25,956 bases of DNA, from positions 1-25,956 of IMG/VR virus record IMGVR_UViG_3300038714_000129; one strand, given 5' to 3'. The stretch is from a virus. How positions within the stretch are numbered: the stretch's first letter is position 1; each line of letters begins with the position of its first letter. Both the position numbers and the translations under genes were made by a program. The notes below the pieces were generated by a model that was not told where the DNA came from, ran no database searches, and was given only the letters and a program-made list of their open reading frames with translations. Shown here piece by piece: positions 4,213 through 11,997 of the stretch.

Positions 4213-5061
4213 TTAAGCCACCAATAAATCTTGGAAAGGCTTAGAGTCTATCCATTGGGATACCTGTTGCTCTCTCTTCCACATTGACTCGCCCTTGGTA
4301 TCATTACCTGTATTACGTAATGAGAAACCATTTCTCTCATCTGCATAAGATGAGTAGTTAGTGAATGCAGAATATAAAGCATACATATTCTTACCCCTTT
4401 TGCTAATCTCTCTTTGAGTAAGAGTAAGCATCTTTTTAGAAAGTCTTTCAGACTTTACTATCTTATCAAGAAGTAGCCTTACATTAGCCTTGATAGGTGT
4501 CTCTGCCCATACTTGTAGCATTCTACAATGAGCATCGAAGTCTGCCTTGGCAGTTTGTAACTCACTCACAAATGTTTCAATACTGAAACCACTTGTGTTC
4601 TTCTTCTTGACTAGGTCATACTTACCCCTAATCTGCCCATTGGTGCAGAACATATCTATCCCACCAAACAATGCCACATTAGAACATGACCCATCAATAC
4701 CGTGTAAAAGAATAATCCTTTCGCTGATATCTGTCTGATGCTTGTCTGTGTAGATACGATAGGTTACTTTAGGTAAAGTAATATCCACCATTGCCCAAGC
4801 ATTATTTCTGCATGACCTTTGCTTGACCTTTGCGTCAATCAACTCATGTGGCTCTCTGTTATCTAAGATAACTTCTTTGACAGAGTTGAAAAATGTAGGG
4901 TGTGAAACACAGTTGAATGTGTTCTTTGTATGACTAATCGCTTCGCCTGTATTCACATTGAATCCAAACTTGTGACCTGCCAACTTACTATCCTCATAGG
5001 ATAGCTCGAAGTTTAAGTTGTTATCTAACTCAAATAGATTTGGGATTACATCAAATGGCAT
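4213..5061 (-). CDS. DUF932-family phage/plasmid-like protein
   Basis: A 282-aa protein with the features of the DUF932 (phage/plasmid-like, TIGR03299-type) family: a central HGIDGSCSNVALFGGIDMFCTNGQIRG block followed by a helical C-terminal half. This family is common on phages and plasmids and its biochemical role is not established. Here it sits between a coiled-coil protein and a cytosine methyltransferase in the early operon, which fits a function in replication or early takeover. The ATG at 5061 lies three bases past the stop of the upstream gene with an AAAGGAG site before it. Confidence 0.8.
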   Translation of the reverse strand: MPFDVIPNLFELDNNLNFELSYEDSKLAGHKFGFNVNTGEAISHTKNTFNCVSHPTFFNSVKEVILDNREPHELIDAKVKQRSCRNNAWAMVDITLPKVTYRIYTDKHQTDISERIILLHGIDGSCSNVALFGGIDMFCTNGQIRGKYDLVKKKNTSGFSIETFVSELQTAKADFDAHCRMLQVWAETPIKANVRLLLDKIVKSERLSKKMLTLTQREISKRGKNMYALYSAFTNYSSYADERNGFSLRNTGNDTKGESMWKREQQVSQWIDSKPFQDLLVA

Positions 5062-5063
5062 AA

Positions 5064-5648
5064 TTATGCTCCTTTCTTTTTGTCTATGTACACTCTAAGG
5101 TGTGTTGATTGGTCGATAGATTGACCCCAATAGGTAGCTCCTGTACCCTTGAGTTCAGGTTTGACGTGTTGTCCACGTACTCTCATGGTGTATGACTCAT
5201 CATTGAGATACACTTTCATACCTCTTGTTAGCTTCTTGCCATACTCGTTGTTAGGTATCTCTGTGAAGACATACCTACTACCATTGGTAGTCGTAGCATC
5301 TTGGTATGCTTCCCTGTAGTGTGTAGCAGTTACATCTCTAGCAATAGAGATTTTTTTAAGGCTATCAATCTTCTCATCTTTCTCTTTGAGAAGTTTTTCA
5401 AGCTCTTCAATCTTAGCAACTAAGTCTTTAGTTGTACCCATATGCTTTGACCTATCAAGCATATTCTCTTGGTCACATAGCTTTACAAAAGCTCTGACCA
5501 TGTGCTGAAAGTCCATGTGTGAGATAGGTATATCTCTACCCTCTGCTTCTGAGTAGTATGTCTTGTTATTCAAGTCATACATATCACTTGCTAGTTTACC
5601 TGTGGTAGTTGTAGCACCTAGCATTGTTACTACTCTGTGTATCTTCAT
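5064..5648 (-). CDS. Unknown early protein with coiled coil, 194 aa
   Basis: No family is recognised. Residues about 75-100 (AKIEELEKLLKEKDEKIDSLKK) form a clear heptad-rich coiled coil, so the protein probably oligomerises. The N-terminal part is polar with a Thr-rich stretch (GATTTTGK); the C-terminal part is mixed beta-like and ends in a basic tail (DKKKGA). The gene is followed within three bases by the DUF932 gene and preceded by a 72-aa gene with a one-base gap, so all three are probably co-translated. Four perfect inverted repeats of 6-7 bp can be picked out inside it (for example near 5274 and 5424), fewer than in the genes further upstream. Confidence 0.75.
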   Translation of the reverse strand: MKIHRVVTMLGATTTTGKLASDMYDLNNKTYYSEAEGRDIPISHMDFQHMVRAFVKLCDQENMLDRSKHMGTTKDLVAKIEELEKLLKEKDEKIDSLKKISIARDVTATHYREAYQDATTTNGSRYVFTEIPNNEYGKKLTRGMKVYLNDESYTMRVRGQHVKPELKGTGATYWGQSIDQSTHLRVYIDKKKGA

Positions 5649-5649
5649 A

Positions 5650-5868
5650 TTAATACTCCTCTATAAATAAAAATTCAATTCGTGATTTTGGATATACTGC
5701 CCTTGCCATATCTATGGCATGGTCAATAGCATAGTTATATCCACTCTTTTCAAGAGCCTGTGGATGTACATTCACTTTGCCCTTGTTTCCGTCTATCGAC
5801 AGACCCACCACCCAAAAGGGTGATGGATATGTCTTGCGATTGGGAAGTGTGCTAATGTTATTCAACAT
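5650..5868 (-). CDS. Unknown early protein, 72 aa
   Basis: ATG 5868 overlaps the last base of the upstream gene and has AGGAGAG upstream. The product starts with a polar segment, then WVVGLSIDGNKGKVNVHPQALEKSGYNYAIDHAIDMARAVYP and an acidic end (EEY). The alternation of strands and one helix suggests a small folded domain. No family or catalytic motif is recognised. Confidence 0.7.
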   Translation of the reverse strand: MLNNISTLPNRKTYPSPFWVVGLSIDGNKGKVNVHPQALEKSGYNYAIDHAIDMARAVYPKSRIEFLFIEEY

Positions 5869-6245
5869 TATGCAACTCTCCTTTTTCTACCAACTTTACC
5901 TCTAGCTAACTTATGTAGCTTACCTACCTTGAACTGTCCGAAGGATATGGACTTGTACTCTTTGTCCTTGAGGTATGCTCTGCATACAGAAGCTAAGTCT
6001 TGCATGGCTACCATGAACCCTGCTGTAGATATGTTTCTAATATAGAAACCATCAGACTTCTTAGTCTCTCTGCACTCAGTAAGCACTATGTCATAGAGCT
6101 TCATCTTAGAGAGCTTCTCACCTGTAGCTTGATAGTATAGGCGAGAGGTAGTGTCAAATAACTTTTGACCTCTCTCGGATAAGCATTGACCTGTTACACC
6201 TGTGGACTGTGTCCAATAAGTTACGTTGATATTTTTCTTACTCAT
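5868..6245 (-). CDS. Unknown early basic protein, 125 aa
   Basis: A 125-aa protein with AAAGGAGA nine bases before the ATG. It ends in a strongly basic tail (GKLHKLARGKVGRKRRVA), which may bind nucleic acid. The middle (YYQATGEKLSKMKLYDIVLTECRETK) is helical. Not recognised. It begins after the first GTCCGA palindrome and has one of the weaker A/T-only pairings around its ribosome site. Its coding sequence contains several perfect hairpins, for example stems of 6-7 bp around a three-base loop near 5971 and 6025. Confidence 0.72.
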   Translation of the reverse strand: MSKKNINVTYWTQSTGVTGQCLSERGQKLFDTTSRLYYQATGEKLSKMKLYDIVLTECRETKKSDGFYIRNISTAGFMVAMQDLASVCRAYLKDKEYKSISFGQFKVGKLHKLARGKVGRKRRVA

Positions 6246-6285
6246 AATAAAATCTCCTTTTTTGTTGGTTAAGTAAGTTAAGTTG

Positions 6286-6307
6286 AGTGTCCGACCATCG
6301 GACAGTT
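6286..6307 (-). repeat. GTCCGA palindrome, copy 1
   Basis: AGTGTCCGA, three bases, TCGGAC, AGTT: a 7-bp inverted repeat. It lies four bases past the stop of the 47-aa gene and upstream of the ribosome site of the 125-aa gene. It is the leftmost of seven same-orientation copies between 6286 and 10144. Confidence 0.9.
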
Positions 6308-6310
6308 AAT

Positions 6311-6336
6311 CTAGGCAAAAAACTTTTCCTGCCTAG
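6311..6336 (-). terminator. Hairpin spanning a stop codon
   Basis: A 7-bp perfect inverted repeat (CTAGGCA / TGCCTAG) with a 12-base loop. In the leftward mRNA the 3' arm contains the TAG stop of the 47-aa gene. There is no U-run directly after it, so it is more likely an mRNA 3'-end or processing structure than an intrinsic terminator. Confidence 0.5.
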
Positions 6337-6454
6337 AATGCTTTTCTTTACGTTGTAATCTGCGTTCCTTTTTCCAATCATCACGATTCTGCTTCTTGAC
6401 TGTTTTCTTGACAGATATCTTTTCAAATGTTTGTTCATCATACTTGCTTCGCAA
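6311..6454 (-). CDS. Small highly basic protein, 47 aa (TTG start)
   Basis: I read this frame from TTG 6454, with AAGGAG seven bases upstream, to TAG at 6313-6311. The product (MRSKYDEQTFEKISVKK and on) is rich in Lys, Arg and Gln and could bind nucleic acid. A longer competing frame (6238-6441) would run through the GTCCGA palindrome and the next gene's ribosome site, whereas this frame stops four bases short of the palindrome, as neighbouring genes do. The non-ATG start and short length limit confidence. Function unknown. Confidence 0.5.
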   Translation of the reverse strand: MRSKYDEQTFEKISVKKTVKKQNRDDWKKERRLQRKEKHSRQEKFFA

Positions 6455-6566
6455 TGTTCTTCTCCTTTTTTCTGTTGTATGAACCCTTGCCTTTCTTTGA
6501 AGGCACTACTTGCTTACGTATAGAAAGCAATGCTTTTGCGATAGGATTTACTTTTTTAATCTTCAT
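6438..6566 (-). CDS. Small basic protein, 42 aa
   Basis: ATG 6566 is one base past the upstream stop (TAACATG) and has GAGGTG seven bases before it. The product, MKIKKVNPIAKALLSIRKQ and a Lys-rich tail, is strongly basic. The frame ends in TGATGA and overlaps the TTG-started gene downstream. No family is recognised; nucleic-acid or nucleoid interaction is the simplest guess for a basic early phage protein. Confidence 0.55.
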   Translation of the reverse strand: MKIKKVNPIAKALLSIRKQVVPSKKGKGSYNRKKEKNIAKQV

Positions 6567-6567
6567 G

Positions 6568-6774
6568 TTACACCTCTATCGTATAATACTTGTCGTTATT
6601 ATCTTTCACTCTGACCACACCTTCATGATGAGGATTAGAAGTTTGTATCATTAATGATTCAACTTCGTAATTCATCTTGTTGATGGTAAAGTAAAACTCA
6701 TATAGGCTTATGGATTTAGCATTAACTAAATCATCAAGTAAGTTTTTAATTTTAACTGTTTCTAAAATTGTCAT
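6568..6774 (-). CDS. Unknown early protein, 68 aa
   Basis: The ATG at 6774 has GGAG six bases upstream; an ATG four codons earlier would contain this site, so I use 6774. The product is mixed polar, with MTILETVKIKNLLDDLVNAKSISLYEF and a C-terminal beta-like end (DKYYTIEV). No family is recognised. A 15-bp perfect hairpin sits 19 bases upstream. Confidence 0.68.
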   Translation of the reverse strand: MTILETVKIKNLLDDLVNAKSISLYEFYFTINKMNYEVESLMIQTSNPHHEGVVRVKDNNDKYYTIEV

Positions 6775-6792
6775 GTCGAACTCCATGTATAT

Positions 6793-6834
6793 GTTATATA
6801 ACTACTTTCATTGAAAGTCAAGTAGTTATATAAC
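6793..6834 (-). repeat. 15-bp perfect AT-rich hairpin
   Basis: Arms 6793-6807 and 6820-6834 are perfectly complementary with a 12-base loop. It follows the stop of the 134-aa gene (6847) and precedes the ribosome site of the 68-aa gene, so it would fold in the intercistronic mRNA. No T-run follows it in the leftward direction. Confidence 0.8.
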
Positions 6835-6846
6835 TTATTCTGTTGA

Positions 6847-7251
6847 TTATATATACACTCTAGGATGAACACCACCCCATATTACTGCATTGGATAGCAC
6901 CTTCATCTCAGACTCCATGCGAATATTCCCCACGAAGTCTCTTGATACTTCCTCAGAGCCAAGCTCTGCACTACTCCTCATGAAGAAGTCATTCTTATAA
7001 GGATTATAAGATACCTTGTGATGATAAGCAGAGCTATCAATATCTTGCTCTTGAGCAATATATCCTACTGCAAAGGCATGAACATTCTTCTTGCCTTCTT
7101 CACGCACTCGCTTCTGTCCACCCTTACGAACAACAAACTTTGCTTGTTCAAGGGTTACATCATATCTATGGTCTATTACTAGACCACTCTTTGCATCTTG
7201 AATACTCCAACACTTCTTGTGTAGATTCCAATATACTCTAACTTTTTTCAT
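6847..7251 (-). CDS. Unknown early protein, 134 aa
   Basis: Starts MKKVRVYWNLHKKCWSIQD, continues with a beta-like segment and a helix (VTLEQAKFVVRKGGQKRVREEGKK), then HAFAVGYI and an acidic middle. It resembles conserved hypothetical proteins of phages, but I cannot name a family. The ribosome site AGG lies in the loop of a 6-bp hairpin immediately upstream, and a GTCCGA palindrome lies just before that. Inside the gene there are perfect hairpins, including a 7-bp stem with a GTAA loop in the mRNA at 7169-7186. Confidence 0.75.
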   Translation of the reverse strand: MKKVRVYWNLHKKCWSIQDAKSGLVIDHRYDVTLEQAKFVVRKGGQKRVREEGKKNVHAFAVGYIAQEQDIDSSAYHHKVSYNPYKNDFFMRSSAELGSEEVSRDFVGNIRMESEMKVLSNAVIWGGVHPRVYI

Positions 7252-7253
7252 AG

Positions 7254-7268
7254 TAAACTCCTAGTTTA
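7254..7268 (-). promoter_or_regulatory. Shine-Dalgarno hairpin of the 134-aa gene
   Basis: In the mRNA, TAAACT-AGG-AGTTTA: a 6-bp stem with part of the AGGAG ribosome site in the loop, three bases before the ATG. One of six such elements between 7254 and 9367. Confidence 0.7.
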
Positions 7269-7269
7269 A

Positions 7270-7290
7270 AGTGTCCGACTTCGGACTGTT
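7270..7290 (-). repeat. GTCCGA palindrome, copy 2
   Basis: AGTGTCCGA, two bases, TCGGAC, TGTT. Its edge overlaps the stop codon of the 237-aa gene (7291-7289). The SD hairpin of the next gene follows after one base. Confidence 0.9.
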
Positions 7291-8002
7291 AATGTTGAAC
7301 GATTGCAATGCTTTTAGCATTGACCTGTGACCCACCACATAACATACATGATGAGCATTGAACTCGCCTACCCATTTCTTTTGAAGCAGGACAGAGTATC
7401 TCTTTACCCTTAACAACTTCGTTGACATCTTGGATAACTCGGAATGTTCTATGTCCGAACTCCCAATGAGTCTTAGCAGTAGCTAAGTTGTCAGCCGACA
7501 CCATGTAAATGGTAGGGTCAAAGCTAGAATTAGGATTGTCATATTGATGACAATAGGCAGTATGCTTTCTAGCTTTTGATATCAAGCTATCCCAAATATA
7601 TTTGGGTACTGCACCACCATCTCCATAAGTTCCAATCCTTACATCTAAGGATTCACCAAGAGAAGCTAATGCTTCGTGTCCTTGCAATGAAGGGTAAGCA
7701 CCCTTTACCCATTGCTTCCAAACATTCAACACCCCTTGGAATAACTTGACATAGCAAGTTCTACCAATAGCTTGTTTACGATTAGGGTCATTAGTTGGTG
7801 TTCCTCTATGAGGACATTGACCACAGTTAGCTTCATCTAAGCCATACTTAGATGCATCCCTTGGGTCATGAGGTGTGATGATGTAAGTCTGCATCATAGC
7901 ACCTGTTTTTGAATTAGTAGATTTGCTTGTTAAAGCAATAGCAATGATACGTTCCCCATTAAGAAGGGAAGCACCATCATAAATCACATAACCATTTGAC
8001 AT
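7289..8002 (-). CDS. Conserved Cys-rich phage protein, 237 aa
   Basis: Begins MSNGYVIYDGASLLNGERIIA and contains SKNSKTGAMMQTYII-like and CGQCPHRG blocks, a CYVKLFQG segment and a C-terminal Cys cluster (ILCPASKEMGRRVQCSSCMLCGG). I recall this arrangement from a widespread phage/plasmid hypothetical family (possibly DUF7227, from memory). The clustered Cys residues suggest a bound zinc or iron-sulfur cluster; no enzymatic motif is visible. The start has CGGAG inside a small hairpin loop and copy 3 of the GTCCGA palindrome upstream. Several 6-8 bp hairpins lie in the coding sequence. Confidence 0.78.
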   Translation of the reverse strand: MSNGYVIYDGASLLNGERIIAIALTSKSTNSKTGAMMQTYIITPHDPRDASKYGLDEANCGQCPHRGTPTNDPNRKQAIGRTCYVKLFQGVLNVWKQWVKGAYPSLQGHEALASLGESLDVRIGTYGDGGAVPKYIWDSLISKARKHTAYCHQYDNPNSSFDPTIYMVSADNLATAKTHWEFGHRTFRVIQDVNEVVKGKEILCPASKEMGRRVQCSSCMLCGGSQVNAKSIAIVQH

Positions 8003-8004
8003 AA

Positions 8005-8017
8005 TTAACTCCGTTAA
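8005..8017 (-). promoter_or_regulatory. Shine-Dalgarno hairpin of the 237-aa gene
   Basis: In the mRNA, TTAAC-GGA-GTTAA: a 5-bp stem with the ribosome-site GGA as the loop, two bases before the ATG. Confidence 0.7.
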
Positions 8018-8018
8018 A

Positions 8019-8040
8019 AGTGTCCGACAATCGGACTGTT
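8019..8040 (-). repeat. GTCCGA palindrome, copy 3
   Basis: AGTGTCCGA, three bases, TCGGAC, TGTT; immediately upstream of the SD hairpin of the 237-aa gene. Confidence 0.9.
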
Positions 8041-8044
8041 ATAT

Positions 8045-8082
8045 ATTATTTATATATTCATATATATTCATATATAAATAAT
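8045..8082 (-). repeat. 13-bp AT-rich hairpin at a gene end
   Basis: Perfect inverted repeat, arms 8045-8057 and 8070-8082, 12-base loop. The outermost base of the 5' mRNA arm is the last base of the stop codon of the 34-aa gene. Copy 3 of the GTCCGA palindrome follows. Confidence 0.75.
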
Positions 8083-8186
8083 TATACTTTCTTTCTGACA
8101 ATTCGATACCACTTTGCATCTAGTGATGCAATAAACTTATCGTGTTCATCCCAAAAGTTTCTTTTGGCTTTTGTATTCTTATACAT
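8082..8186 (-). CDS. Very small basic protein, 34 aa
   Basis: ATG 8186 overlaps the stop of the upstream gene (TAATG) and the frame closes at TAA 8084. Product: MYKNTKAKRNFWDEHDKFIA and a basic end (WYRIVRKKV). It contains two perfect 7-bp hairpins (about 8110-8170). Coupling to the upstream gene and the hairpin plus palindrome after its stop match its larger neighbours, which supports it. Function unknown. Confidence 0.55.
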   Translation of the reverse strand: MYKNTKAKRNFWDEHDKFIASLDAKWYRIVRKKV

Positions 8187-8404
8187 TATGCATTTCTCCA
8201 TTTAAAAATTATTAATAATCCTGCTATTGACAAAGTCAACCCCATAGCTCCAACAAGAACTACGAAAGTTATCCCTATAGGATAAGGGGTATTGATAGCT
8301 TCGCTCATGTAATACCCATCAGCTTCCCCAAGGGTAAGCCATGCCATTAAAAATACAGGTATTCCTAAAAGGAATATTAATATTCCATCAATCTTTTTAC
8401 TCAT
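8186..8404 (-). CDS. Two-span membrane protein, 72 aa
   Basis: Residues about 5-25 (DGILIFLLGIPVFLMAWLTL) and 43-67 (GITFVVLVGAMGLTLSIAGLLIIF) are hydrophobic and should each span the membrane, joined by a short polar loop (GEADGYYMSEAINTPYP); both ends are basic. Size and topology resemble small phage holin-like or superinfection-exclusion proteins, but neither can be claimed. The ATG is preceded by a 7-bp hairpin with GGA in its loop. Confidence 0.75.
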   Translation of the reverse strand: MSKKIDGILIFLLGIPVFLMAWLTLGEADGYYMSEAINTPYPIGITFVVLVGAMGLTLSIAGLLIIFKWRNA

Positions 8405-8421
8405 TTTAAACTCCGTTTAAA
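8405..8421 (-). promoter_or_regulatory. Shine-Dalgarno hairpin of the 72-aa membrane protein
   Basis: In the mRNA, TTTAAAC-GGA-GTTTAAA: a 7-bp perfect stem with the GGA in the loop, directly adjacent to the ATG. The stop codon of the upstream gene lies in the 5' arm. Confidence 0.75.
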
Positions 8422-8623
8422 GGTATCTACTATCATCATAAGAGTAGATAGGGTTAGGTTCTAATTTAGCATACTTGCTAAATACTACTATATCATTTTC
8501 TGTATCAATCTCTTGATACATTCTTTTGTCATGGACAAAGTGAATAAAGTCAGGCTTATCAAATACTTTGATAGCTGACAAGTATTCATCATTATCCCTA
8601 AAATTCACAAAGTGAACAGCCAT
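8417..8623 (-). CDS. Unknown early protein, 68 aa
   Basis: I use ATG 8623, which overlaps the upstream TAA (TAATG); an in-frame TTG five codons earlier is less likely. The product (MAVHFVNFRDNDEYLSAIK and on) is acidic with many aromatic residues. No family is recognised. The coding sequence is crowded with inverted repeats: 8-bp stems at 8464-8483 and 8501-8520, the latter with a GAGA loop in the mRNA, and a compound stem at 8549-8579. Confidence 0.7.
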   Translation of the reverse strand: MAVHFVNFRDNDEYLSAIKVFDKPDFIHFVHDKRMYQEIDTENDIVVFSKYAKLEPNPIYSYDDSRYL

Positions 8624-8787
8624 TAGTCTTGCTCCCAATATTCTATTTCATTTAAGAATTTTTCTACTGAAAAATTTTCATTGTTACTTGTAAGTAAATC
8701 AATAAATTGTTTTACAATTTGTTTATCTCTATTAAGTTTATTGAACTTAATAAATTGTGTTAACTCATAAAAATCTATATCTAGCAT
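8623..8787 (-). CDS. Small unknown protein, 54 aa
   Basis: A frame from ATG 8787 to a TAA that overlaps the next ATG by one base. The product begins MLDIDFYELTQFIKFNKLNR, is mostly helical and ends acidic (EIEYWEQD). It has its own SD hairpin (TTAATC-GGA-GATTAA) and follows copy 4 of the GTCCGA palindrome, the same layout as the surrounding genes. Perfect 7-bp (8704-8720) and 9-bp (8730-8752) hairpins lie in the coding sequence. Function unknown. Confidence 0.65.
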   Translation of the reverse strand: MLDIDFYELTQFIKFNKLNRDKQIVKQFIDLLTSNNENFSVEKFLNEIEYWEQD

Positions 8788-8788
8788 T

Positions 8789-8803
8789 TTAATCTCCGAT
8801 TAA
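8789..8803 (-). promoter_or_regulatory. Shine-Dalgarno hairpin of the 54-aa gene
   Basis: In the mRNA, TTAATC-GGA-GATTAA: a 6-bp stem, GGA loop, one base before the ATG. The stem differs from the TTTAAAC type at paired positions, so pairing is kept while sequence changes. Confidence 0.72.
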
Positions 8804-8804
8804 T

Positions 8805-8825
8805 AGTGTCCGACATCGGACAGTT
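8805..8825 (-). repeat. GTCCGA palindrome, copy 4
   Basis: AGTGTCCGA, two bases, TCGGAC, AGTT; between the stop-codon hairpin of the 64-aa gene and the SD hairpin of the 54-aa gene. Confidence 0.9.
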
Positions 8826-8826
8826 T

Positions 8827-8855
8827 GGGAAGTGCTTAATTAAAAGCACTATCCC
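8827..8855 (-). repeat. Hairpin spanning the stop codon of the 64-aa gene
   Basis: A 7-bp perfect stem (8831-8837 with 8844-8850, loop of six) extended by GGGA/TCCC with one bulged base. The TAA stop (8838-8836) lies at the loop edge. No U-run follows. Confidence 0.65.
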
Positions 8856-9030
8856 ATTCTTCAGGTGTGATACCTGTCTTGATGAACTCTCGTTCATCAG
8901 GGGTTAGGTGTGGCATGGCGTTCTGAATAAGAACACCATCCACTTGCCAAGAGCTTAATTGCTCTAGGGTTACGTCAATCTCCATGACGTTAGTGTTACC
9001 ACTAAAAGGTGAGGTTCTGATTATTTTCAT
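8836..9030 (-). CDS. Unknown early protein, 64 aa
   Basis: Starts at ATG 9030 (MKIIRTSPFSGNTNVMEIDV); a longer frame from an in-frame TTG would begin inside the GTCCGA palindrome and include the ribosome site, so I reject it. The C-terminal half (PHLTPDEREFIKTGITPEEWDSAFN) is helical and acidic. No family is recognised. An 8-bp hairpin with a GAGA loop in the mRNA lies at 8880-8899, and a GTAA-loop hairpin at 8991-9004. Confidence 0.7.
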   Translation of the reverse strand: MKIIRTSPFSGNTNVMEIDVTLEQLSSWQVDGVLIQNAMPHLTPDEREFIKTGITPEEWDSAFN

Positions 9031-9031
9031 G

Positions 9032-9047
9032 TTAAACTCCTGTTTAA
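9032..9047 (-). promoter_or_regulatory. Shine-Dalgarno hairpin of the 64-aa gene
   Basis: In the mRNA, TTAAAC-AGGA-GTTTAA: a 6-bp stem with AGGA in the loop, two bases before the ATG. Confidence 0.72.
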
Positions 9048-9048
9048 A

Positions 9049-9070
9049 AGTGTCCGACAATCGGACTGTT
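9049..9070 (-). repeat. GTCCGA palindrome, copy 5
   Basis: AGTGTCCGA, three bases, TCGGAC, TGTT; same core and spacer as copy 3. It is followed by the SD hairpin of the 64-aa gene after one base. Confidence 0.9.
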
Positions 9071-9078
9071 AAGGTTTA

Positions 9079-9129
9079 TATATAATAATTAAATATTTTA
9101 CCCATAAATGGATATTTAATTATTATATA
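9079..9129 (-). repeat. 18-bp perfect AT-rich hairpin at a gene end
   Basis: Arms 9079-9096 and 9112-9129 pair without mismatch; the 15-base loop can add a CCA/TGG pair. The TAA stop of the 77-aa gene (9118-9116) lies inside the 5' arm of the mRNA hairpin, so a terminating ribosome would unfold it. Copy 5 of the palindrome follows. Confidence 0.8.
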
Positions 9130-9349
9130 AATCTTCAAACTCTTGAAGAATCTTTAGATTCTCTTCGTGCTGTAACGCAACCTTAGACTTTGTATAAAGT
9201 CTTTGGATAGCAAAAACACCACAATCATAAATGATTGGTTCATATTTCTTTTGGTCATTTACATGACCAACCCAATTAGAACCAACCCTCTTATGAGGGT
9301 TAATTCTTTTAGCAAAATTACTTTTTGTAATTTTAAATATCTTTGCCAT
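9116..9349 (-). CDS. Unknown early basic protein, 77 aa
   Basis: Begins MAKIFKITKSNFAKRINPHK, basic in the first half with VGSNWVGHVNDQKKYEPIIYDCGVFAIQRLYTK in the middle, and an acidic helical end. No family is recognised. At least six perfect hairpins of 6-8 bp tile the coding sequence: 9132-9149, 9147-9162, 9185-9202, 9251-9270 (GTAA loop in mRNA), 9284-9301 and 9314-9334. The start has an SD hairpin directly upstream. Confidence 0.7.
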   Translation of the reverse strand: MAKIFKITKSNFAKRINPHKRVGSNWVGHVNDQKKYEPIIYDCGVFAIQRLYTKSKVALQHEENLKILQEFEDLYNN

Positions 9350-9350
9350 G

Positions 9351-9367
9351 TTTAATCTCCGATTAAA
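9351..9367 (-). promoter_or_regulatory. Shine-Dalgarno hairpin of the 77-aa gene
   Basis: In the mRNA, TTTAATC-GGA-GATTAAA: a 7-bp perfect stem, GGA loop, one base before the ATG. Confidence 0.75.
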
Positions 9368-9397
9368 AGAAAAAGAAAGGTAGCATTAAGCTACCTT
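9368..9397 (-). terminator. Intrinsic-terminator-like hairpin at the end of the first early gene
   Basis: An 8-bp perfect stem (AAGGTAGC / GCTACCTT, 9377-9397) with a five-base loop that contains the TAA stop of the 209-aa gene, followed in the leftward direction by a U-rich run (TTCTTTTTCT). This is the most terminator-like structure in the early operon. Since genes continue downstream it may act as a partial terminator or attenuator. Confidence 0.6.
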
Positions 9398-10015
9398 CTT
9401 TGGTGAAGAAACAAGTTCCTTGTACTGAGAGTTAAACTCTCTAGTAAAGTCTTGGATAGAGATGTTATTCATCTCTAGTTGAACTAGCACTTCAAGTGCT
9501 ACTTCAGAAGCTGTTAGCTTCTTGTTTTGAGCCTTTGGCTCATTAGTGTCCGACTTCGGACTGTCTTGAGTCTTTGACTCAGTCTCTTGAACCTTTGGTT
9601 CATCTTGAGACTTTGTCTCATCAGAAGCCTTTGGCTTATCTGACTTTGGCTTGTTAGCCTTGTTAAAGGCTTTCTGAAGGCTAGAGATATTTTCATATCT
9701 CTTTCTTGTAGCTTTTAACCAAGCTACGACTTTGTCGTAATTGTTGAAGAGCCACATAGCTTCGCTAAGTCTTCGTCTATCAATCTTTACAAGATTGTAC
9801 TTGGACTTTAAGTCCTTTGTGAGAATATTACTATTCTCAAGTTTCAGTATCTTAGATACTGTTGAAGCAAGACGAAGATAGAAACTATCTTTGTTTAAGA
9901 CTAACTTGGTAGTCTTAGCCTTCTCAGCTTTGCTGATAGCTTTGTCTTCAGCTACTAAAGTAGCTACTTGAGCTTTTAGCTCTACTTGAGTTGGAAGTGA
10001 TTTTGATTTAGCCAT
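9386..10015 (-). CDS. First early-operon gene, unknown 209-aa protein with charged linker
   Basis: The promoter-proximal gene of the leftward operon, with AAGGAG before the ATG. The product has an N-terminal basic helical part (MAKSKSLPTQVELKAQVATL), a folded middle (SFYLRLASTVSKILKLENSN to KRYENISSLQKAFNK), a low-complexity linker of Lys, Asp, Glu, Ser and Pro (about residues 122-167, repeats of the E-P-K-A / E-S-K-T type) and a short C-terminal helix domain. No family is recognised. The coding sequence is almost a continuous chain of short perfect hairpins, and copy 6 of the GTCCGA palindrome is encoded in the linker as SPKSDT. Being first and basic, it could be an early regulator or nucleic-acid binder; this is inference. 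Confidence 0.75.
   Translation of the reverse strand: MAKSKSLPTQVELKAQVATLVAEDKAISKAEKAKTTKLVLNKDSFYLRLASTVSKILKLENSNILTKDLKSKYNLVKIDRRRLSEAMWLFNNYDKVVAWLKATRKRYENISSLQKAFNKANKPKSDKPKASDETKSQDEPKVQETESKTQDSPKSDTNEPKAQNKKLTASEVALEVLVQLEMNNISIQDFTREFNSQYKELVSSPKKVA
9545..9565 (-). repeat. GTCCGA palindrome, copy 6, inside a gene
   Basis: AGTGTCCGA, two bases, TCGGAC, TGTC: the only copy within a coding sequence, in the low-complexity linker of the 209-aa protein, in frame and encoding S-P-K-S-D-T. Confidence 0.88.
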
Positions 10016-10033
10016 GTTAAACTCCTTTTATAT

Positions 10034-10076
10034 TATTTTTTAAGCTATTTACAAATAGCTCATAGCTTAAAAAATA
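10034..10076 (-). promoter_or_regulatory. Inverted repeats over the -10 box and leader of the early operon
   Basis: A 15-bp perfect inverted repeat (10034-10048 with 10062-10076) whose outer arm overlaps the predicted leftward -10 box. Its loop region can instead form AGCTATTT / AAATAGCT (10043-10060). The two pairings exclude each other. This may be an operator or a leader switch. Confidence 0.55.
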
Positions 10077-10101
10077 TATAGAGTCGAAATCCATTTGTCA
10101 A
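10073..10101 (-). promoter_or_regulatory. Leftward early promoter
   Basis: TTGACA (10101-10096), 17-base spacer, TATATT (10078-10073) on the minus strand: five of six bases of the -10 and all of the -35 match the sigma-70 consensus. Transcription would start near 10066, about 50 bases ahead of the first early gene. Copy 7 of the GTCCGA palindrome lies 22 bases upstream of the -35 box. Confidence 0.75.
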
Positions 10102-10122
10102 TAGATACTCCTTAGTATCTAA

Positions 10123-10144
10123 AGTGTCCGACAATCGGACAGAC
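10123..10144 (-). repeat. GTCCGA palindrome, copy 7, upstream of the early promoter
   Basis: AGTGTCCGA, three bases, TCGGAC, AGAC. It is the only copy upstream of the predicted leftward promoter, so if that is the only promoter it is not in the early mRNA; this argues for a DNA-level role for at least this copy. Confidence 0.9.
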
Positions 10145-10146
10145 CA

Positions 10147-10172
10147 CACTACCCTAGGGGGTAGTGGTTTTT
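10147..10172 (+). terminator. Plus-strand terminator-like hairpin
   Basis: CACTACCC, TAGG loop, GGGTAGTG, then GTTTTT: an 8-bp GC-containing stem followed by a five-T run on the plus strand. Oriented to stop rightward transcription coming from the early region, where all genes are on the other strand. Confidence 0.6.
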
Positions 10173-10379
10173 GTACTCCTCCTCTGCAACACCTTGTTTG
10201 TTGCAAAAATACCACAATCTTTCATGCTAAAGCATGGCAACTGATAGTAAATGAGTTTCCAACCAATGCTAAAGCATTGAATTTGCTACATTTTCTAAAG
10301 AAAATCAATGCATATATGCACATATTGAGCGTTTACACAGGCAATGCACACATATACGCCACATATTGGGCAATATACA

Positions 10380-10601: not shown

Positions 10602-10630
10602 TTGACAAAAGTGCTGAGTGGGGGTATAAC
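10602..10630 (+). promoter_or_regulatory. Rightward promoter of the late arm
   Basis: TTGACA (10602-10607), 17-base spacer, TATAAC (10625-10630). This serves the plus-strand operon starting at 10752. The same -35/-10 pair recurs at 16039 and 24847. Confidence 0.75.
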
Positions 10631-10631
10631 T

Positions 10632-10702
10632 ACACTTAAATGAAACACTTAAATGTATAATAACTTAATTATTAAAAAACACTTATATGATACACTTAAA
10701 TG
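10632..10702 (+). repeat. Four 11-bp repeats ACACTTAAATG in two pairs
   Basis: Copies start at 10632, 10645, 10679 (one base changed) and 10692; each pair has 13-base spacing and the pairs are 47 bases apart. Extended to 14 bp the unit (TACACTTAAATGTA) is palindromic but for one base pair. The set starts two bases after the -10 box of the rightward promoter, an operator-like or iteron-like position. Confidence 0.7.
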
Positions 10703-10751
10703 TAGTAAAGAATAGAATCCTCCGTAAGTTAAATTAAATTCGTGCTTGACA

Positions 10752-10964
10752 ATGTCTAAAAAATCAGTACAACTATATGTACCAGAGAATATGCTTGACG
10801 CATTTTACGATGCTGTTCGTGATAATAAACTAAAAGACTTACATATTCCTCATAGTTCTGTGTTTTATGTACGTGCTGCGATAGAAGCGAAGACAGGTAT
10901 ACGATATACATTGAAGCACGTAGAAAATGCAATGAAACATGAAGGGATGTTAGACGATGTTTGA
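10752..10964 (+). CDS. First late-arm gene, unknown, 70 aa
   Basis: Starts MSKKSVQLYVPENMLDAFYD; an in-frame TTG two codons earlier is less likely. No good Shine-Dalgarno is visible, so it may use a weak site. The C-terminal half (HSSVFYVRAAIEAKTGIRYTLKHVENAMKHEGM) is helical and basic and could be a small DNA-binding fold; its position right after the promoter and operator-like repeats would suit a regulator. No family is recognised. Confidence 0.65.
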   Translation: MSKKSVQLYVPENMLDAFYDAVRDNKLKDLHIPHSSVFYVRAAIEAKTGIRYTLKHVENAMKHEGMLDDV

Positions 10965-11466: not shown

Positions 11467-11997
11467 ATGGCTGAATCATATTTAGAAAAAAGAAAACGTA
11501 TATTAGCACAACAAAAGAAACGAGCTGCTGAAAGAAAGAAAAAAGCAGCTAAAACAATAGGTTCTGAAAAGGATATTGTTAGAACTCGTGCTAAGAAAAA
11601 ACCAACAAGCAAACTTGCTGCATTACCTTTATCAGGTAAAAGCACAAGAATGAGAAAGTCTAAATCTAGACTAAACCCTTCCGTAGATTATTCTAAAACA
11701 CCAAAAGCTCCTAAAGGAACTATTAAAAGAGGTTCTCTTGGTGCAAGGAACATACCAACAGGCAAAGCTCCAACAACTAAAAATATAACTAAAAGTGCAT
11801 TAGGTGCTAGAACACCTGCAAAGAAAAAAGAAGAGTTTTCTTCTTTTGGTGCTGCCTTCCGTGCTGCTCGAAAGAGATTAGGCACAGGTAAAACTTTTAC
11901 ATATAAAGGTAAAAAGTATAGTACAGTAACTAAAGCTGACTTAAAAGGTATGTCTTTAAGAGATTATCTTAACAAACTAAGAAAGAAGGGAAAGTAA
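11467..11997 (+). CDS. Lysine/arginine-rich protein, 176 aa
   Basis: Very basic and of low complexity (EKRKRILAQQKKRAAERKKK at the start), with no fold obvious until the C-terminus, where FGAAFRAARKRLGTGKTFTY, then KGKKYSTVTKADL forms a short module that I have seen in other phage proteins as AFRAAR...F.W.GK.Y.T. Start has only AAGATGGAGATG-type upstream sequence (GGAG). Likely binds nucleic acid or virion DNA; exact role unknown. Confidence 0.65.
   Translation: MAESYLEKRKRILAQQKKRAAERKKKAAKTIGSEKDIVRTRAKKKPTSKLAALPLSGKSTRMRKSKSRLNPSVDYSKTPKAPKGTIKRGSLGARNIPTGKAPTTKNITKSALGARTPAKKKEEFSSFGAAFRAARKRLGTGKTFTYKGKKYSTVTKADLKGMSLRDYLNKLRKKGK

Follow-up and report, generated by a model that had tools for sequence, protein, structure and literature searches.

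The window, by which we mean the whole 25,956-nt stretch analyzed here, comes from a viral record of 26.4 kb and belongs to an HMO-2011-type podophage. Its portal protein was 74-78% identical, over the matched part, to those of HMO-2011 and of the Roseobacter phages CRP-345 and CRP-1, and all three phages carry homologues of gene 1, described below. Terminase, integrase, cell-wall hydrolase, and an L5 gp82 domain were also recognized. The last of these, a Mycobacterium phage L5 gp82 domain (PF25735, E 3.9e-30), was found in the protein encoded at 6847-7251. The early genes form a leftward operon running from 10015 to about 309, with the integrase gene last, and diverge from the rightward structural genes. 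The features of the locus are listed in Table 1.

Gene 1, the first gene of this operon, encodes a protein predicted to consist of a helical N-domain, a disordered linker (residues 126-164, pLDDT about 30), and a C-terminal helical hairpin. Pfam and PHROG searches gave no match above the cut-off, and neither a solved-structure relative by sequence nor a confident fold match was obtained (the best Foldseek E was 1.7, and the best VIA Z, for a helical model, was 3.9), which does not show that the fold is new. No copy of gene 1 was found in bacterial and archaeal genomes.

Table 1. Features of the early region (window coordinates; hairpins and dyads written as arm-loop-arm).
Feature	Position	Strand	Remark
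Hairpin-packed zone	4213..10305	-	covers the early leftward operon and roughly 290 bp before it; densest at 8.5-10.0 kb
Gene 1, 209 aa	9386..10015	-	early operon
Candidate sigma-70-like promoter TTGACA-17-TATATT	10073..10101	-	11/12 consensus match; candidate early-operon start
Hairpin AAGCC-AAA-GGCTT (K-P-K-A)	9625..9637	-	gene 1 linker
Hairpin TGAGAC-AAA-GTCTCA (E-T-K-S)	9606..9620	-	gene 1 linker
Hairpin TGAACC-AAA-GGTTCA (E-P-K-V)	9588..9602	-	gene 1 linker
Hairpin TGAGTC-AAA-GACTCA (E-S-K-T)	9567..9581	-	gene 1 linker
Hairpin TGAGCC-AAA-GGCTCA (E-P-K-A)	9528..9542	-	gene 1 linker
In-frame dyad GTCCGA-AG-TCGGAC (S-P-K-S-D-T)	9548..9561	-	gene 1 linker
Dyad GTCCGA-TTG-TCGGAC	10126..10140	-	upstream of gene 1 and promoter-like site
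Dyad copy	9052..9066	-	upstream of start codon
Dyad copy	8808..8821	-	upstream of gene 8623-8787
Dyad copy	8022..8036	-	upstream of gene 7289-8002
Dyad copy	7273..7286	-	upstream of gene 6847-7251
Dyad copy	6289..6303	-	upstream of gene 5868-6245
RBS-bearing hairpin TTTAAAC-GGA-GTTTAAA	8405..8421	-	just before ATG at 8404
Private 8-bp hairpin AATCCTTA-GATG-TAAGGATT	7634..7653	-	5 substitutions, one arm only

Hairpin coverage was calculated from perfect hairpins with a stem of at least 6 and a loop of 3-8. It rose from a background of about 0.04 to 0.5 at 8.5-10.0 kb and decayed until about 4 kb, so that perfect short inverted repeats make up as much as half of the early-gene sequence in a zone of 4-6 kb. 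The zone ends sharply on the right, at 10305, and fades gradually leftward with an e-fold of about 3-3.7 kb. The minus-strand genes between 4213 and 10015 exceeded their synonymous shuffles (z 2.2 to 9.8), except for 8623-8787 (z = 1.5), while the plus-strand late genes stayed at background with 11467-11997 (z = 3.4) as the sole exception. The divergent region was nearly hairpin-free on its right side, and the hairpins of the zone extended some 200 bp upstream from the best promoter-like site. In gene 1, 48.7% of the bases lay in perfect hairpins compared with 8.0% in synonymous shuffles (z = 9.8; 0/200). The synonymous shuffles themselves had a higher coverage than plain shuffles (0.080 vs 0.013), which indicates that the amino-acid sequence itself carries an imprint of the hairpins. 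The codon phases of the hairpins were uniform (39:30:31) and independent of frame, and a tuning of the hairpins to wobble positions was rejected on this absence of phase bias. Besides the RBS-bearing hairpin of Table 1, the ATGs near 9030, 8002, and 8787 are each directly preceded by an A+T-rich hairpin whose GGA loop contains the RBS.

A sequence-only reading of the window had described five hairpins with AAA loops (mRNA strand) in the gene 1 linker and an in-frame palindrome among them, and all of these were present. The linker units follow TGANNC-A(A/G)A-GNNTCA and encode E-x-(K/E)-x-Q. With a stem of at least 5 and a loop of 2-4, six hairpins were counted, whereas 2000 synonymous recodings averaged 1.04 and never gave more than 4; with a stem of at least 6, there were 5 against 0.35 expected and a maximum of 3. 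In a comparison that this reading had suggested, the linker, which spans 30-47 aa among the relatives, was found to vary in units of hairpins. The 21-nt unit gagacTGAGTCaaaGACTCAa, which holds the E-S-K-T hairpin, is absent from L003, L113, L004, and L005. Linkers of 30 aa carry one hairpin (the dyad alone, in L006), those of 33-38 aa two to four, those of 40-42 aa five or six, and the 47-aa linker of the window six. Linker length thus changed because hairpin units were gained and lost, which lends partial support to the proposal that the elements had created the linker. The companion proposal, in which the linker offers free sequence space for carrying such elements, is rejected, since the rest of gene 1 is as dense (0.492 compared with 0.444 in the linker), as are the neighboring genes and non-coding DNA. 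The pattern is therefore real and regional, extending beyond the linker, and the palindrome is a different type of element from the linker hairpins. Homologues that keep the linker protein without hairpins, which the reading had named as evidence against itself, exist in part: L122 keeps E-P-K-A and L006 has a similar linker, almost hairpin-free. As a separate observation, the hairpin GAGAC-AAA-GTCTC also occurs at 6107-6119 of L061, in a linker-like region of the first gene of an unrelated phage.

Relatives of gene 1 (25-98% identity) have the zone, with the exception of one lineage. Across L001-L006 and L111-L126, it begins some hundreds of bases before gene 1, peaks in the first kilobase, and decays downstream. 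The hairpin z of gene 1 was 4.7 to 15.4 in all tested loci with one exception, the L006/L124 contig, where it was 0.5 to 1.2. The first hairpin of the zone, ATTTTC-GAAAAT (10290-10305 in the window), occupies the same position in the aligned upstream sequence of five genomes, where it is adjoined by about 400 bp of mostly hairpin-poor DNA. The cultured phages HMO-2011, CRP-1, and CRP-345 showed a weaker enrichment in gene 1 (z 6.5, 5.6, and 4.7, respectively). For the 237-aa product of gene 7289-8002, the relatives in L013 and L014 share 83-85% protein identity and have no hairpin with a stem of at least 6, another partial instance of a protein kept without hairpins. The absence from L013, L014, and L006 despite conserved protein suggests that the trait is dispensable. 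The zone was also present over non-homologous first genes in L061 and L063, an unrelated group whose only detected tie to the window is a distant copy of the 7289-8002 protein: the first gene of L063 reached z = 8.5 with no relation to the gene-1 profile detected, and that of L061 held 14 hairpins in 477 nt. No 1-kb window exceeded 0.14, and no dyad family was found, in the HMO-type phages where gene 1 was not found (CRP-2, -603, -9, -207, -738, and HTVC033P) or in the common phages T7, N4 (first 50 kb), SIO1, and HTVC010P. A literature search, in which few subscription papers were covered, found neither hairpins nor dyads described for these phages.

The palindrome belongs to a second layer of repeats. 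Five of the seven GTCCGA copies in the window lie just upstream of a start codon, and each phage has its own operator-like 12-bp dyad in three to eight copies, mostly upstream of early genes. The dyads are of the TTCCGA-TCGGAA type throughout L004 and L005, GTCCAA-TTGGAC in CRP-1, CRP-345, and L117-L122, GTTCGA-TCGAAC in L015, TGTCAA-TTGACA in L014, TTCCCA-TGGGAA in L013, and TACTAC-GTAGTA in L061. The in-frame position was kept in those gene-1 relatives whose linker was read, with arms specific to the phage. HMO-2011 is an exception, as the dyad copies found there lie outside gene 1. L061, whose gene 1 is non-homologous, also has an in-frame copy in that gene, as does L015 in its first gene, for which a relation to the gene-1 family was not detectable. 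Since the arms change together by phage, a trans-acting binder may be supposed, and the dyad is most likely the binding site of a putative regulator, operator- or stoperator-like. Cluster A mycobacteriophage stoperators are asymmetric repressor sites with a known repressor, repeated genome-wide (PMC9283540). The resemblance is one of analogy only: like them, the phage site is short, repeated mostly in the short gaps before early genes, and has a sequence of its own in each phage; unlike them, it is a dyad with a putative binder and has one copy in a coding linker. Dyad and hairpins are two overlapping layers made of separate kinds of element. Six of the dyads of L001 are GTCCGA, but the one at 2273 is of the TTCCGA variant known from L004/L005 and shares its locus with a copy in L004, which suggests that phages differing in their dyads have recombined.

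If the stems served as RNA structure, G-U pairs ought to be tolerated in them. With the zones pooled, perfect 7-bp stems were 23.5 times as frequent as in shuffles, while 7-bp stems with one internal lesion reached 2.0 (G-U), 1.4 (A-C), and 2.0 (other mismatch) times chance. One-sided stem changes in relatives gave G-U to A-C counts of 119:117, 177:183, and 57:68, about equal at every divergence, and the RNA folding z of sense and antisense was -10.1 vs -10.0 and -7.3 vs -7.5. Among single-lesion hairpins, G-U stood to A-C as 5 to 7 in mid-stem and as 15 to 4 at the end pairs, and the latter excess leans to RNA. Apart from these end pairs, G-U was not accepted more than A-C, contrary to what selected mRNA structure would give; the stems are perfect or absent and strand-symmetric, as expected of template switching. 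Loops were mostly 3-4 nt, and the loop-closing pair was C-G in 0.44 compared with G-C in 0.08 (about 5:1), preferences which indicate that the hairpins physically form. Stem perfection, strand symmetry, codon-phase uniformity, C-G closing, and the paired changes described below favor DNA hairpins over mRNA structure.

Paired changes in the stems, also noted in the sequence-only reading, were far above independence. Double Watson-Crick changes numbered 31 against about 4 expected at 90-95% identity and 60 against about 10 at 85-90%, the expectations being rough arithmetic from the observed counts and the pairwise comparisons non-independent through common ancestry, with most relatives being metagenomic fragments. 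The ratio of paired to single changes was near constant between 75 and 95% identity. A single event that alters both arms would produce such constancy, although a similar pattern could result if intermediates were strongly selected against. Among mid-stem single-lesion hairpins, 18 were compensated and 23 broken. The private hairpin at 7634-7653 differs from the consensus of seven relatives, AAGATAAAGATGTAAGGATT, by five substitutions that all fall in one arm, and a second private hairpin of this kind was found in L083, the seven relatives holding the other state. In general, the clustering of changes in one arm showed no excess (38/69, compared with roughly half in a shifted-geometry control), and it was dropped as a proof of template switching; the two clean 5-to-0 cases remain. 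In several pairs, conservation was slightly higher in the stems than in the loops and the surrounding sequence, which is also what selection would give.

We consider it somewhat under an even chance, about 45%, that the hairpins are made and repaired by DNA template switching. A zone whose start is fixed shortly before the early operon would be repeatedly rewritten, at the DNA level, into perfect short inverted repeats. The nascent strand would fold back on itself where a near-palindrome leaves a loop of 3-4 nt, copy one arm onto the other, and return, and such copying could create new perfect stems, maintain old ones, and transfer a point change between arms. The proteins, the linker among them, would thereafter bear the hairpin imprint. 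The decrease in density away from the start point suggests a directional process beginning there, possibly early replication or early transcription. A bidirectional origin fails to explain the zone, because hairpins are nearly lacking on the right of the divergent region.

The main rival is selection for DNA hairpins or cruciforms, in which single-stranded DNA of the early region must fold during replication, entry, or recombination, for protection, protein loading, or initiation, and compensated point mutations maintain the stems. Strand symmetry, stems restricted to Watson-Crick pairs, C-G closing, and paired changes are expected under this view as well, and it agrees with the slight extra conservation of stems and with the recurrence over non-homologous first genes in L061 and L063. 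Since L013, L014, and L006 lack the hairpins in shared genes, the codon phase shows no adjustment to synonymous sites, and private hairpins arise as five one-arm changes, we regard it as possible though somewhat unlikely. Its fuller form, in which densely packed DNA hairpins at the genome end expressed first are a functional device that evolved more than once in phages, as over the non-homologous first gene of L061, and bent the proteins to fit, for instance by folding single-stranded early DNA or blocking host defence, we hold to be unlikely. Selection for structure in the early mRNA, as protection from nucleases or RNA-targeting defence or to steer translation or Rho termination, would account for a zone that tracks the leftward operon and peaks at its 5' end, and for the Shine-Dalgarno GGA in some loops. 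It is disfavored by the G-U tests, as there is no credit for G-U inside stems and one-sided changes are about 1:1 overall, although the 15:4 at end pairs leans the opposite way. Sense and antisense fold equally, and hairpins extend about 200 bp beyond the best promoter-like site, though a promoter further upstream is possible. Taken together, we judge it improbable.

Mobile palindromic elements inserted into genes, as in Rickettsia, could explain a dispersed GTCCGA dyad with one copy in frame and the gain and loss of linker units in 21-nt steps. In both systems palindromes are read through in frame in proteins. The Rickettsia elements, however, are insertions of related elements, whereas the phage hairpins are unrelated in sequence and mostly came without insertion: only the linker units were gained or lost, and most other hairpins sit at aligned protein positions of conserved length, where the relatives are ungapped and non-hairpin. 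The dyads, too, keep fixed places while their arms change together by phage, and this explanation is very improbable. Chance, base composition, or protein-sequence demand is refuted as an explanation. A+T-rich DNA and the E-P-K repeats do raise the background of gene 1 somewhat, to the 0.080 given above, yet the observed coverage lay at z = 9.8, none of the 200 shuffles or 2000 recodings reached the observed values, all late genes but one stayed at background, and conserved proteins exist without hairpins. Protein demand is ruled out by the synonymous shuffles together with the hairpin-free homologues.

Template switching has precedents. Nematomorpha mitochondrial genes contain coding palindromes of up to 284 bp, for which conversion or template switching was proposed (PMC6649704). 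They share with the phage zone perfect inverted repeats in conserved coding sequence, all-or-none arms, and gain and loss between relatives; in contrast to those long repeats, the phage stems are 5-8 bp, occur by the hundred, and are confined to one zone of a DNA phage, which has an edge and thins out from there. Template-switch mutations are also documented to create and maintain hairpins of RNA genes (PMC8794818), with the same creation of perfect stems by multi-base single events and the same compensatory changes. Those cases were inferred under RNA selection, while the phage hairpins lie in protein-coding DNA, are strand-symmetric, and give no credit to G-U.

If the zone is mutational, it would be a natural case of template switching writing whole genes and visibly shaping proteins. 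Functional RNA structure is usually considered proven by compensatory changes; here these would have arisen without it, and the G-U test would be a simple way to separate the two. If the zone is selected, it would represent a device, so far undescribed, that acts at the level of DNA when phage infection begins. The cultured phages HMO-2011, CRP-1, and CRP-345 carry the weaker gene 1 form, which makes the zone testable either way, and the phage-specific dyads offer a second handle on early-gene control in these marine phages.

Two further features were noted. A small rightward gene of the divergent region, at 10746-10964 (about 70 aa), has a similar protein in L015; its product had no Pfam match above the cut-off and is a candidate regulator. 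Repeats of (A)CACTTAAATG / CACTTATATG surround an A+T-rich stretch at 10626-10709 in a conserved intergenic block. They are iteron-like and possibly mark an origin or operator, and a similar motif also occurs near 270-290.
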